Source: an uncultured Alphaproteobacteria bacterium
Lineage (GTDB): Bacteria; Pseudomonadota; Alphaproteobacteria; Micavibrionales; CSBR16-224
Assembly: GCA_950054485.1 (NCBI GenBank)
Contig: CATLPD010000001.1
Span: 186,001 to 250,000, forward strand
Direction: 5' to 3'
Length of the DNA: 64,000 bases
Shown piece by piece: positions 11,756-16,308 of this stretch. How positions within the stretch are numbered: position 1 is the stretch's first letter; every line of letters starts with the position of its first letter. The position numbers and the translations under genes were made by a program. The notes under the pieces were generated by a model. That model had not been told where the DNA came from. It was given only the letters and a program-made list of their open reading frames with translations, and made no database searches.

Positions 11756-12230
11756 AACTCCGGATTTGAAAATCTGTCGCCAGTTCCGTCTTGCGGTTAT
11801 TGTCTGGCGCTATCCTATACGTTTGTTTCTTTGGCTAACCTTTATCGTTCTTTTTTATCCTGATCTGTCGCAGATGTCTTTTTCATCTCTGCTGGCCATC
11901 AGCCTTGGCGGCTTCCTTTTACTGTATGCAGGACCCGTTATAACGACATATCTGGAATATAAACGCATTCCCGTTTTTTTCTATAGTGACCGCATTGAAT
12001 TGCGTGAAAGCCTTTTGATAAAGGACAATTTAAAGATGCCCTATCGCAATGTCATCGAGGCCAAATGCACGGCAAATATGCTGCAAAAACACTACGGTCT
12101 GCAAACGCTTTGTATCAAACTGAAATCAGGATCAGATCATCGTAAAACTGGCGATTACTGGTTTAAGCTTGATGATATAAAACGCAGTGAAAATATAAAG
12201 GCCATCTGTTCGGCCTGTGGCGTCGATTAA
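11688..12230 (+). CDS. Two-helix membrane protein with PH-like domain, copy 2
   Basis: A 180-residue protein with a Gln/Thr/Pro start (QTPQQTPQQTPKKK), two membrane helices (near residues 38-58 and 64-84), and a PH-like domain (FFYSDRIELRESLLIKDN, then KMPYRNVIEAKC). Architecture and strand order repeat those of the upstream protein, but identity is low. The ATG at 11688 lies inside the upstream gene and overlaps it by 68 bases in a different frame. If that start is wrong, an in-frame start after 11755 would remove the first membrane helix, so the overlap is probably real. It ends convergently, overlapping the 12227 gene by four bases. Confidence 0.6.
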   Translation: MQTPQQTPQQTPKKKRLTKTLPETPDLKICRQFRLAVIVWRYPIRLFLWLTFIVLFYPDLSQMSFSSLLAISLGGFLLLYAGPVITTYLEYKRIPVFFYSDRIELRESLLIKDNLKMPYRNVIEAKCTANMLQKHYGLQTLCIKLKSGSDHRKTGDYWFKLDDIKRSENIKAICSACGVD

Positions 12231-13297
12231 TCGGTGCGCACGCAGCGGACATTGTGGGTTGTAAGCTTACTCCAGTTACCATAGGAAGGGCTGTTAACCA
12301 TGTGCGAGATGGTTACAACATTAGAGTTGCCAGAGTCTTCCGTAGAGCTCCAGTAAACAGACGTCGAGCCCGGCTGTTCATCATTAAACGTGCCATTTAA
12401 ACTACCGACTTTCCTGTTGCCGTCTAAAACCGCCAACTCTCCGCTGGATGGTAAATACCATTCCGATCCCAATGCCGTGCATAGATCAACCGCATAATAA
12501 GCTGTATCTGTAAATGCTGAAATAGTCGCAGTATTCGCGGCCCCATCCGAGGAAGAGTTCGCGCCCGTTGTGGTATAGGCAGCGGACCAAGCTACACGTC
12601 CCTGATCAAACAATGTTGTATAAAGTCGGTTTCCGCTGTAACTGCCGGCATAGACCAGACCACCGCAGACCTCGCCCACAGCCAATGACGTCAGGTCACA
12701 GCTGGCTTTCAAGACATAGGCTAAACACGATCCGGTCGCACAGGTGCCTGTCGCAGTGTCTACAGAAATCATCTCAGCAGGATAGGATGCATCAATTTGT
12801 GCCAAGGCTTCATCCCAAACGCTCGAGTCAATCGTGTAGTCAATCGACACTTCGACGTTTTGGCCTGGTGCATTGTAATAGGTGGTCGTATATTTCGTCG
12901 TATCACCCAGTAATTTGAAAAAGCGGCCCTTTGCAGGTGTGAAAATTGTTTCTCCCGACCCCGGACATTTGATATCGGCGATCACATCGCCGCTGACACC
13001 GGTTGAATCATCATTATAAATTGGATAAGGTGGATTTGGGTTATCTTCTGAATCAATATCACCATCGCCATCAACATCCACAGCATCGGGATATAAAAGA
13101 ATACATTCGTTTATGCCCGCACTGATTGTGGCCAAATCGGATGCCAGCTTGTTTTTAACATCCTGCAGTTTGATATTTGTTGTGGCGACGCTGGTTTCTT
13201 CCATCATCGTGGCCATCAGGACCCCTGACAGAAAAAGCGCCAGCAAAAGATAGGCAACCGCACTGCCCTTTTGATTTTTTAAATCAACCCCGATCAT
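12227..13297 (-). CDS. Surface protein: prepilin-like anchor plus DUF1566/Lcl-type C-terminal domain
   Basis: The 356-residue protein starts with a short leader and one hydrophobic helix (KGSAVAYLLLALFLSGVLMA). Residues about 70-83 hold a Ca-binding-like DVDGDGDIDSED loop. From about residue 205 the sequence has the signature of DUF1566/Lcl domains with a C-type-lectin-like fold: EWYLPSSGELAVL, YWSSTEDS and the terminal NVRCVR. Such domains occur in adhesins and Legionella collagen-like proteins. Surface display is inferred. The ATG overlaps the end of the upstream regulator gene by 14 bases, so the two form a coupled operon. Confidence 0.7.
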   Translation of the reverse strand: MIGVDLKNQKGSAVAYLLLALFLSGVLMATMMEETSVATTNIKLQDVKNKLASDLATISAGINECILLYPDAVDVDGDGDIDSEDNPNPPYPIYNDDSTGVSGDVIADIKCPGSGETIFTPAKGRFFKLLGDTTKYTTTYYNAPGQNVEVSIDYTIDSSVWDEALAQIDASYPAEMISVDTATGTCATGSCLAYVLKASCDLTSLAVGEVCGGLVYAGSYSGNRLYTTLFDQGRVAWSAAYTTTGANSSSDGAANTATISAFTDTAYYAVDLCTALGSEWYLPSSGELAVLDGNRKVGSLNGTFNDEQPGSTSVYWSSTEDSGNSNVVTISHMVNSPSYGNWSKLTTHNVRCVRTD

Positions 13298-13820
13298 CTT
13301 TTAAGTATAACATATATCCGTTATCGCGTGTTGTTATAATTTCTTCAAACAGCGGCGCTTTTTGCCGCAATCTATAGATATGCGTTTCAACCGTATGGGT
13401 CGTAACATCAGAATGATATTGCCAGACGTTCCTTAACAGCATGTCTTTCGTGCAATTTTCGCCCTTATGTTGATATAGAAAAATCAGCAACTCCGTTTCC
13501 AAATCGGTCAAAATGATATCACCGTCAGGTGTTTCAACTTTGCGTTTCACCGGATAAAAACAGGATTCATTCAATAGAAAACATCTGTTACGATCCCATT
13601 TGACCATAAGATCGGGAAAAATTTGCCGGGCCGATATTTGCCCCTTGCTCAAAAGGTAATATTTTTCCTGCCCGCTTTTATTATCACGGTCTGTCAGGAT
13701 AATATCCGCCTTGTCCGAATCTTCCAAAACAGAAAAATCCGCCATCTGCGAAATCAATTGTGTTAATCCGCTGCGTAAACGTGTATCCTGAATATCTAAG
13801 GCTATGGGTATCTGTTCCAT
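13284..13820 (-). CDS. OmpR/PhoB-type winged-helix regulator with degenerate N-domain
   Basis: The last 95 residues of this 178-residue protein form a Trans_reg_C winged-helix domain: LTDLETELLIFLYQHKGENC, then the recognition-helix segment TTHTVETHIYRLRQK, and the wing ITTRDNGYML. The first 60 residues have alternating strands and helices like a shortened receiver (ALDIQDTRLRSGL..ADIILTDRD) but lack a full acidic pocket. It therefore probably acts without classical phosphorylation. No histidine kinase is adjacent. Translational coupling to the lectin-like surface protein downstream suggests that it controls that gene or responds to a surface state. Confidence 0.75.
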   Translation of the reverse strand: MEQIPIALDIQDTRLRSGLTQLISQMADFSVLEDSDKADIILTDRDNKSGQEKYYLLSKGQISARQIFPDLMVKWDRNRCFLLNESCFYPVKRKVETPDGDIILTDLETELLIFLYQHKGENCTKDMLLRNVWQYHSDVTTHTVETHIYRLRQKAPLFEEIITTRDNGYMLYLKDDRG

Positions 13821-13865: not shown

Positions 13866-14159
13866 ATGAGCAATACCGTCGTAACAGATTATGATATTGT
13901 TTTTGCCCTGCATACGGGCGTCACTATTATGATGCAGCAGCAAAAAGATTTTGATAACAGCCCCGATGGCGAGCTGCCATTCACGGTGTCCGAGGCTGAT
14001 TCCGCCGTTCATATCGAAGCCGCATCAGGAAAAACAGTCATTATCGACAATATAAAATCGAATATGCTGGCCGAAATCAAAGGCCGCGCTTTTTTCATGA
14101 TTTATGAATTCGACGGCGAGGATATGACGCGCTGCACGCCCTGTGCCCTTAAAATGTAA
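13866..14159 (+). CDS. Hypothetical protein, 97 residues
   Basis: A small, acidic, soluble-looking protein of no family I recognise. It has alternating short strands (VTDYDIVFALHTGV, KTVIIDNI, AFFMIYEFDG), consistent with a compact beta-rich fold, and ends in CTPCALKM. I use the ATG at 13866; an in-frame GTG at 13839 would add nine residues but has no better ribosome site. It lies divergent from the winged-helix regulator and upstream of the sigma-54-driven gene. Confidence 0.5.
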   Translation: MSNTVVTDYDIVFALHTGVTIMMQQQKDFDNSPDGELPFTVSEADSAVHIEAASGKTVIIDNIKSNMLAEIKGRAFFMIYEFDGEDMTRCTPCALKM

Positions 14160-14183: not shown

Positions 14184-14200
14184 TTGGCACGTCTGTTGCA
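14184..14200 (+). promoter_or_regulatory. Sigma-54 (RpoN) promoter, consensus match
   Basis: TTGGCACG (14184-14191), four bases, then TTGCA (14196-14200) reproduces the published TGGCACG-N4-TTGCW consensus. The invariant GG and GC are ten bases apart. Transcription would start near 14211, 16 bases before the ATG at 14227 and just ahead of its AGAGG ribosome site. Sigma-54 promoters need an enhancer-binding activator; none is encoded nearby. Confidence 0.8.
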
Positions 14201-14226
14201 TATCTAATCTGCAGAGAGGTTAGAGT

Positions 14227-15504
14227 ATGTCATACACGCATGCACATTACAGCAGTCGTACCGCAGGGGGCCATCATCGTGCCGCCGCAGGGGCATCCTT
14301 TAACAACAACGTATTATCAAATGGGCGGGGCACACTTTCCCCCAATCAAAATACCACCGTCCAAACCCCGAAGGGCAGCGCACATTCCCCCAACAGTGCC
14401 GCGCCCCGATTTGACGCCCTGCTGCAGGAGGCAAACGCGCACCCCCAAACGGATACTCCCCCATCCGGATTTGCGCCCAAAACGCCCCTCGCAGCAGGCA
14501 GTCAAACTTCAGAATTTCAAAAACAGGATCAATTGAATGCCGGGTTTCGCACTCCACACGATATGAACGATGCGAATAAACCGACACAGAACGAACGTGC
14601 TGACAGCCGTACGGCAAATCGCACCGTATCAACCAAAGATCGCGCGGCCTATAACGCTGATGGCGAGGAGATCAAATTCACCATTTGGGATTTTCTGGAT
14701 ATGATCAACCCGCTGCAGCACATTCCGATTGTCAGCAATATCTATAGATCATTGACCGGCGATGAAATTTCATCGCATGCGCGCATTATGGGCGGCGCCG
14801 TTTATGGTGGGCCCATTGGCGCCGCCGCAGGCGTTGCAAATGCCGTTGTGGCTGAAGCAAACGGCGGCGAAGATATCGGCGAAACAGTCGTTTCACTAGT
14901 ATCCGGGCGTAAACGGCCCGTTGAAAGTCTGGTTGAAAATGCCGACTTTGCCGCAACACAAAACAGTAATTTCAATATTTCAAAAGATGATATTAAATGG
15001 TCTCATCCATCAGACACTCTATCCCCCTCTAACACTCCGCGTCTGAATGAAGAGATCAAAGCCGGGAGCGCCCCTGCAGCGCCTTCTCCCTCCCCCTCCA
15101 ACGCGCGTGGAGCCTCCCGGTCTTTCCCCTTTACACAAACCATACAAAACCAGTTTTTATCACAGGCCCATCCTACACATACACATCCTACACATGCGGC
15201 CAGTGATAAATCAGGGGTATCGGCGACACCCTCCTTACACATGACGTCCGATGCCCAACCAAACGGAGCAGAACCCCGATCGTCTGTAGCCGCGCAAGCG
15301 GGAGAACGGAATCGAAAAGAAATTTCGTACGCAAGACAAGAAAACACGGGCTCACCACTGACTCCTTCACTGCATACGGTTCAGGCGGCGCGCGCAGAAT
15401 CCGCCACGTTGCCTGAACCCGCTGCAATTACCGACAAAATGGATTTGCATCTGAAAATGATGGCCGGCCTTGAAAAATATCAGGCGATGAAAACCGCGCA
15501 ATAA
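14227..15504 (+). CDS. Unknown 425-residue protein under sigma-54 control
   Basis: Most of the protein is low-complexity and rich in Ser, Pro, Thr, Ala, Asn and His, for example the HPTHTHPTHA repeat. One structured core lies at residues about 140-235: IKFTIWDFLDMINPLQHIPI, then VSNIYRSLTGDEISSHARIM, followed by a Gly-zipper-like hydrophobic stretch (GGAVYGGPIGAAAGVANAVV). I have the impression that this INPLQHIP..IYR..TGD core recurs in alphaproteobacterial hypothetical proteins, without known function. No signal peptide is seen. A consensus sigma-54 promoter lies directly upstream. In flagellated alphaproteobacteria such promoters often serve motility genes, so a motility-linked role is a reasonable guess but unproven. 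Confidence 0.7.
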   Translation: MSYTHAHYSSRTAGGHHRAAAGASFNNNVLSNGRGTLSPNQNTTVQTPKGSAHSPNSAAPRFDALLQEANAHPQTDTPPSGFAPKTPLAAGSQTSEFQKQDQLNAGFRTPHDMNDANKPTQNERADSRTANRTVSTKDRAAYNADGEEIKFTIWDFLDMINPLQHIPIVSNIYRSLTGDEISSHARIMGGAVYGGPIGAAAGVANAVVAEANGGEDIGETVVSLVSGRKRPVESLVENADFAATQNSNFNISKDDIKWSHPSDTLSPSNTPRLNEEIKAGSAPAAPSPSPSNARGASRSFPFTQTIQNQFLSQAHPTHTHPTHAASDKSGVSATPSLHMTSDAQPNGAEPRSSVAAQAGERNRKEISYARQENTGSPLTPSLHTVQAARAESATLPEPAAITDKMDLHLKMMAGLEKYQAMKTAQ

Positions 15505-15549: not shown

Positions 15550-16308
15550 ATGAAACAAAAATCACGTTCAAAAGACACTGCTTTATTTTCACCGCGTACG
15601 ATCAGCCTGGTTTTGATCGGTTTGATTGCGGGGCTGATCACAGCCTTTTACATCATGAATACGCGCGCCGCACAATATATCAGTGATCAGGCATCGCAAA
15701 TTTTTCAACTACCTGTCACGGTTGATGATGTTAATATCTCTTATGTTTCGCACAGTGTGCGCATCAGCGGTCTAAAAATCAAAAATCCCGATGGTTTTAC
15801 AGGTGATCATGTCGCCATCATTGAAGACATTCGTCTTTATTCCCGCGGCCTACATCAGGATCCGATCCCCGTTTCAAAAATTGAAATTAACGGCATCATT
15901 TTCTACCCCGAACGGGATGCAGCCGGTGAAACCAACCTTGCCTATTTGCTGGATGGAATTTTTGACCAAACCCCGCAGGATGCTGACATCACATTAAGCG
16001 TGCCCCTGAATAAAATCTTTATCAAGGATATGCGCCTGCGTCCGATTGGCGAGGATTACACCAAACTGGATCGAAAAATTATAATGGATAATCGCGCGCC
16101 ATTATCTGACGTTGAGGACATTATCGAAGTCACCCCCGAAGAGCTGGTACAAATGACAACACAAGCCCTGTCGCCGCAGATATTCCGTACGCTTTTAACC
16201 GCGCAGGTTACAGCCGGCATTGATAGCGCGGTTCAAGTCAGTCAGGATTTCATCCGCGATATTGAGCAGTTTTCCCGAAAGCTACAAAACGCTTTTTCCT
16301 CGGAATAA
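15550..16308 (+). CDS. AsmA/DUF748-like single-span membrane protein
   Basis: The product has one N-terminal membrane helix (TISLVLIGLIAGLITAFYIM) followed by an extracytoplasmic domain. Residues about 50-115 carry the LPVTVDDVNISYVSHSVRIS then GLKIKNPDGF pattern and an IEDIRLYSRGL strand, as in AsmA/DUF748-type proteins, which are bridge-like or LEA-like periplasmic repeat proteins linked to envelope lipid transport. The rest is helical. At 252 residues it is far shorter than classical AsmA and holds only the N-terminal unit. The start at 15550 is preferred over an upstream GTG. It is convergent with and directly abuts the CDF transporter gene. Confidence 0.55.
   Translation: MKQKSRSKDTALFSPRTISLVLIGLIAGLITAFYIMNTRAAQYISDQASQIFQLPVTVDDVNISYVSHSVRISGLKIKNPDGFTGDHVAIIEDIRLYSRGLHQDPIPVSKIEINGIIFYPERDAAGETNLAYLLDGIFDQTPQDADITLSVPLNKIFIKDMRLRPIGEDYTKLDRKIIMDNRAPLSDVEDIIEVTPEELVQMTTQALSPQIFRTLLTAQVTAGIDSAVQVSQDFIRDIEQFSRKLQNAFSSE

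Follow-up and report, generated by a model that had tools for sequence, protein, structure and literature searches.

The window analysed here, a 64,000-nt stretch from an uncultured alphaproteobacterium of the order Micavibrionales, carries a sigma-54-type promoter sequence directly before a gene for a 425-aa protein (gene X). The locus raises two questions: which sigma-54 regulon does the gene belong to, and what may its protein do?

Promoter and leader of gene X

The elements at the 5' end of the locus are as follows.

14184 to 14200, + strand: sigma-54 (-24/-12) promoter TTGGCACG-TCTG-TTGCA, with GG at 14186-14187 and GC at 14198-14199 (sequence and conservation)
14213 to 14219, + strand: putative ribosome-binding site AGAGAGG (read from sequence)
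14227 to 15504, + strand: gene X, encoding a 425-aa protein with a conserved core and low-complexity flanks

The segment TTGGCACGTCTGTTGCA occupies 14184-14200, and ten bases separate its GG from its GC. TGGCACG-N4-TTGCA lies at 14185-14200 and the ATG of the gene X ORF (14227) is 27 nt downstream. With transcription predicted to start near 14211, the leader would be about 16 nt long. In the 2.28-Mb genome, TGGCACGN4TTGC is found without mismatch only once, in front of gene X. With 11 fixed bases and 4.56 Mb of strand, chance alone would give about one exact match. The single match is thus weak proof, and it would suit a chance occurrence before an ordinary gene. It is the conservation across orthologous loci that raises the site above chance. 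Using a threshold of 12.5/15 or more within the 500 nt preceding the core, we found a sigma-54 site at 47/47 loci of the order, 74/80 loci of the class and 74/80 loci of the named set. The class-wide total is 148/160 (92%), the class and named sets sharing a few genomes, and addition of the order brings it to 195/207. The controls gave 6.5-6.9% (shuffled) and 2.5-17% (reverse strand). GG and GC are retained in 206 of the 207 best sites; since the score rewards those very bases, the fair comparison is by threshold. The same gene being preceded by a site at so many loci refutes a chance hit, which we consider hardly conceivable. The RpoN consensus with GG and GC ten bases apart, as given in the original prediction, is confirmed in the sequence and conserved at these loci, and the rpoN gene on which that prediction relied is present in the window genome (PF04552, E=1e-63).

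At about 20 gene X loci (e.g., L066, L088, L095, L107, L153, L154, L156, L173, L190, and L201) the ATG is located 10-14 nt past the -12 GC, at the expected start of transcription. A gap in the ATG-to-GC distances follows this group, and the next group starts at 21 nt. Judged from the spacing, these genes look like leaderless mRNAs transcribed from a sigma-54 promoter.

The gene X protein and its family

Within gene X the following features were recognized.

14257 to 14268, + strand: N-terminal RTAG peptide motif, R[TM][AG]GxxPVW in its fuller form in relatives (28/47 order homologues)
14683 to 14904, + strand: conserved core domain, F..D..L D..NPLQHIP..YR..TGD.I....R..GG..YGG..G.....N....TG.D (two alignments; class and phylum searches)
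14773 to 14859, + strand: predicted long glycine-zipper helix of the core (AlphaFold2, pLDDT about 80 there with a low pTM of 0.35; hydropathy)
15433 to 15501, + strand: C-terminal helix motif KMMAGLEKYQAMK, family form MMxxLxKY (homologue alignments)

The window protein has no match above cut-off in Pfam, NCBIfam or PHROG. A set of 118 core sequences gave only stray single matches in Pfam/NCBIfam, and a PDB profile search returned one meaningless match. The protein had been called uncharacterised from its sequence, and by these family searches it is. A single-protein pattern scan of the genome contigs found no relatives; the core profile alone found them. Each positive genome has a single copy of the core, and such genomes make up 47 of 55 in the order and 113 of 289 in the Alphaproteobacteria. 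Outside the class, the core is also present in the same phylum, mostly in one genus of about 17 genomes. A named scan raised at least 568 relatives, including Azospirillum, Magnetospirillum, Kiloniella, Terasakiella, Pelagibius and Micavibrio, and a plasmid search with the Azospirillum copy gave no match. As far as sequence comparison can tell, gene X is a widespread family without a name in the libraries searched.

The protein is arranged as a loose N-terminus in which no Sec signal was apparent, the core (short helices and one long glycine-zipper helix), a loose linker and the C-terminal helix motif. The core is about 75 aa long and has the short pattern D..NP.QHIP..YR..TGD..R..GG..GG..G. 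With a mean hydropathy of 1.48 across 19 columns, its zipper helix is only borderline as a transmembrane segment. In the core alignment G52, G57, G58 and G61 are invariant or nearly so, and the glycine zipper of the original prediction is in this respect real. The description of the protein as mostly disordered would likewise fit its sequence and the lack of conservation beyond the core and the C-terminal helix. MMxxLxKY is found in 15/47, 30/80 and 51/80 homologues. Two AlphaFold2 runs gave all-helical models of low confidence (pLDDT 66 and 68, pTM 0.32 and 0.35), for which Foldseek detected no fold match. Because R[TM][AG]GxxPVW keeps a GGC...TGCC appearance through its T/M and M/V swaps, it was also considered as a DNA enhancer within the reading frame. 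Codons at the motif show no bias; the enhancer was ruled out and the motif is taken as a peptide motif.

Sigma-54 regulon of the window genome

The window genome has only two strong sigma-54 activators. One is FlbD-like and carries GAFTGA, and its gene is flanked by a MotA-like gene and flhA. The other is an NtrX (L299:1066-2487) with no GAFTGA loop (ELFGVEQESKILKRG). NtrC was not found among the strong activator matches. FlbD drives the sigma-54 flagellar genes of Caulobacter and GAFTGA is required (PMC12421884). NtrX-type proteins from several FlhA-negative genomes also have no GAFTGA. Other intergenic sigma-54 promoters of the window genome precede genes for flagellin, FlgF, FliL, FliK and an SLT-type transglycosylase, in a list that may be incomplete as it was read from one-mismatch sites and chosen stretches.

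Two of these genes deserve separate description. The sigma-54-driven flagellin on contig 1 near 8.9 kb (L342:8864-10408) has a concanavalin A-like domain (Laminin_G_3, E=4e-15) C-terminal to its N-terminal flagellin region, and it is possible that this domain acts as a lectin on the filament. The SLT-type transglycosylase-like gene on contig 3 (L344:7265-8263) is located immediately behind its sigma-54 site and probably encodes a wall-opening enzyme of the flagellar regulon.

A promoter class common to fliK and flagellin could also be expected if the gene X protein were a late substrate exported via the flagellar type III apparatus, like FliK or FlgD, instead of residing in the membrane. The loose N-terminus and the absence of a visible Sec signal agree with export, but the core contains a hydrophobic glycine-zipper helix and the protein has no homology to known substrates. 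We consider an exported protein improbable.

A second promoter element

A dyad search without prior identified a second element, CGGCA-N5-TGCCG, roughly 70-110 bp upstream at gene X homologues. At 9/10 or better the palindrome was present at 51/80 and 57/80 loci as compared with 3 and 5 of 80 shuffled sequences, almost always at -59 to -131 from the sigma-54 site. A matrix built from the named set recovered it at 61 of 80 held-out class loci at 10 bits (shuffled, 0.1%). Most Micavibrionales have no upstream palindrome; 12-13 of 47 loci have a perfect or near-perfect intragenic copy at about +145 to +303. In the window genome no copy of 9/10 or better was found between -500 and the 3' end of gene X, the best matches there being 8/10.

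14612 to 14626, + strand: CGGCAAATCGCACCG, 8/10 match to the class palindrome, weak and possibly due to chance (sequence)

The same combination of sigma-54 site and palindrome was detected at four flagellin promoters (L358 at -99, L365 at -99, L368 at -116, and L364 at -90), at a fliK-like gene (L377, -91), at flhG (L347) and at an apparent flgD; at the remaining flagellin loci examined the two were not both present. In the window genome only fliK has the shared palindrome, at +291. The palindrome fits the ftr site of Caulobacter FlbD, which we take to be CGGC..AAA..GC.G. An ftr site may stand upstream or downstream of the transcription start. Aspects of FlbD/ftr biology are reviewed in PMC3930126. 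NtrC-type sites (GCAC-N5-7-GTGC) upstream of gene X numbered 0-1 per set, as by chance.

Co-occurrence with flagella

The co-occurrence with flagella, a check named in the original prediction, turned out to be strong, though not total, in the class-wide search of the core (113 of 289 genomes). Among 112 core-positive genomes (the weak match G057 being excluded), the core is accompanied by FlhA in 95 (odds ratio 8.3, p=1e-14), by RpoN in 108 (odds ratio 17, p=4e-13) and by FlhA or flagellin in 105. Seventeen core-positive genomes are FlhA-negative. Flagellin is present in ten of these, and flagellin promoters of three (G210, G248, and G114) carry the palindrome, so FlhA and the adjoining FlbD are probably missing from those assemblies. 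No FlbD-like activator was recognized among the loci read in 16 FlhA-negative core-positive genomes. Five near-complete core-positive genomes (G081, G121, G167, G270, and G291) have neither FlhA nor flagellin. Conversely, 71 FlhA-positive genomes lack the core, which indicates that it is not required for flagella as such and is accessory instead of universal. Gene X is situated outside the flagellar gene clusters.

The core follows RpoN more closely than FlhA, as would be expected if gene X belonged to a nitrogen or envelope-stress regulon (NtrC, NtrX or other) and flagella co-occurred only through a common need for RpoN. NtrC and NtrX are the common activators in the 16 FlhA-negative core-positive genomes, and several FlhA-negative core-positive genomes retain a good palindrome. 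However, among RpoN-positive genomes alone core and FlhA remain associated (odds ratio 5, p=1e-6). No NtrC match was found in the window genome, its NtrX has no GAFTGA, GCAC-N5-7-GTGC sites are not above chance, and the same palindrome is found at flagellin promoters. A nitrogen or stress regulon is considered unlikely. The original prediction had left the choice between flagellar and nitrogen genes: the flagellar part is supported by the FlbD-like activator, the flagellar promoters and the shared palindrome, and the nitrogen part is not, given no NtrC among the strong matches and no NtrC sites above chance. The promoter, the class palindrome, the architecture common to flagellin promoters and the activator repertoire, all seen in the comparison, suggest with good probability that gene X belongs to the flagellar sigma-54 regulon. 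Since a flagellin/hook-type promoter drives the family, its product is very probably an unrecognised accessory part of the flagellum programme.

Neighbouring genes and the link to YkuD

The genes around gene X in the window are the following.

13284 to 13820, - strand: divergent OmpR-type winged-helix regulator (conserved neighbour, 33/47 order and 60/80 class loci)
13866 to 14159, + strand: small upstream gene with no clear family (ORF and family search)
15550 to 16308, + strand: AsmA/DUF748-like gene, in the place that YkuD has in most class members (family search, neighbourhood comparison)

The common order in the class is ribA, gene X, ykuD, and then yggS on the opposite strand, with an OmpR-type regulator upstream, also on the opposite strand. 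The window genome retains the regulator alone of these usual neighbours, with no YkuD directly downstream of gene X. A YkuD gene is next on the same strand at 48/80 and 58/80 class loci and at 7/47 order loci; it was not seen beside gene X at two outside-class loci. Gene X and ykuD are mostly separated by -1 to about 120 nt, and in about ten cases they overlap translationally. From this arrangement, gene X and the L,D-transpeptidase are probably co-transcribed in many species, which would suggest that peptidoglycan is worked on locally, close to the basal body or stator. The catalytic motif is retained in 111 of 113 YkuD proteins, and hydropathy revealed no signal peptide or N-terminal hydrophobic segment in any of the 113.

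The receiver half of the window regulator (13284-13820) has no Response_reg match and class relatives have a full receiver; the receiver appears to be degenerate in the window lineage. The end of the regulator gene is overlapped by a minus-strand gene (12227-13297) whose product has a pilin-like hydrophobic helix at the N-terminus and, at the C-terminus, an Lcl_C match below cut-off.

The YkuD linkage and the retained catalytic motif would also suit a peptidoglycan-remodelling pair of X and YkuD that is timed with the flagellum, at the pole or at division, and is not part of it. A few genomes with no flagellar matches retain the core, and, as a lead, an Aeromonas YkuD-like gene alters cell length and so motility (PMC4398505). 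However, YkuD adjoins gene X at few order loci and was unseen at the two outside-class loci, so the link is either not ancestral to all or not required, and the YkuD proteins have no signal peptide or N-terminal hydrophobic segment. We regard a pair that is only timed with the flagellum as rather doubtful. A pair coupled to the flagellum itself, in which a glycine-zipper membrane assembly of X at the flagellar base recruits the L,D-transpeptidase, or passes it without Sec, to re-crosslink peptidoglycan round the rod or stators, would be unlikely in that specific form.

Proposed role and comparison with known systems

For a member of the flagellar regulon, the following course of events is proposed. 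RpoN holoenzyme would bind the -24/-12 site of gene X. An FlbD-type activator, made beside flhA, would fire gene X with the flagellin, rod, hook-length and fliL genes, presumably by binding the CGGCA-N5-TGCCG palindrome. The protein would be made late in flagellum building and would lie on or in the inner membrane via its glycine-zipper helix, where its loose tails and C-terminal helix may hold partners at the flagellar pole. In species that have YkuD, the two proteins may act on nearby peptidoglycan. We tentatively propose, at low confidence, a late-made, membrane-associated accessory that holds partners at the pole as the likeliest role. The flagellar regulon would gain a widespread unnamed family (more than 500 sequenced genomes), the second class-wide promoter element would make the regulon predictable from sequence, and the operon partner points to a cell-wall crosslinking enzyme.

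The closest regulatory parallel is the FlbD/ftr regulon of Caulobacter crescentus (class III/IV), which likewise has a -24/-12 promoter, an FlbD-type activator and a palindrome that fits what we take to be ftr. In contrast, the gene X protein is not a known flagellar part, its gene lies outside the clusters and no clear palindrome accompanies the window copy. Like the motility-linked YkuD L,D-transpeptidases (A. caviae AHA0618 and H. pylori Csd6), the class partner of gene X is a YkuD with the catalytic motif, but this partner has no signal peptide and the window genome has no YkuD beside gene X. Gene X differs from FliL, FliX, FlgJ and FliK in having no Pfam/NCBIfam sequence match and no fold match, but its regulation is common with that of FliL and FliK in the window genome.
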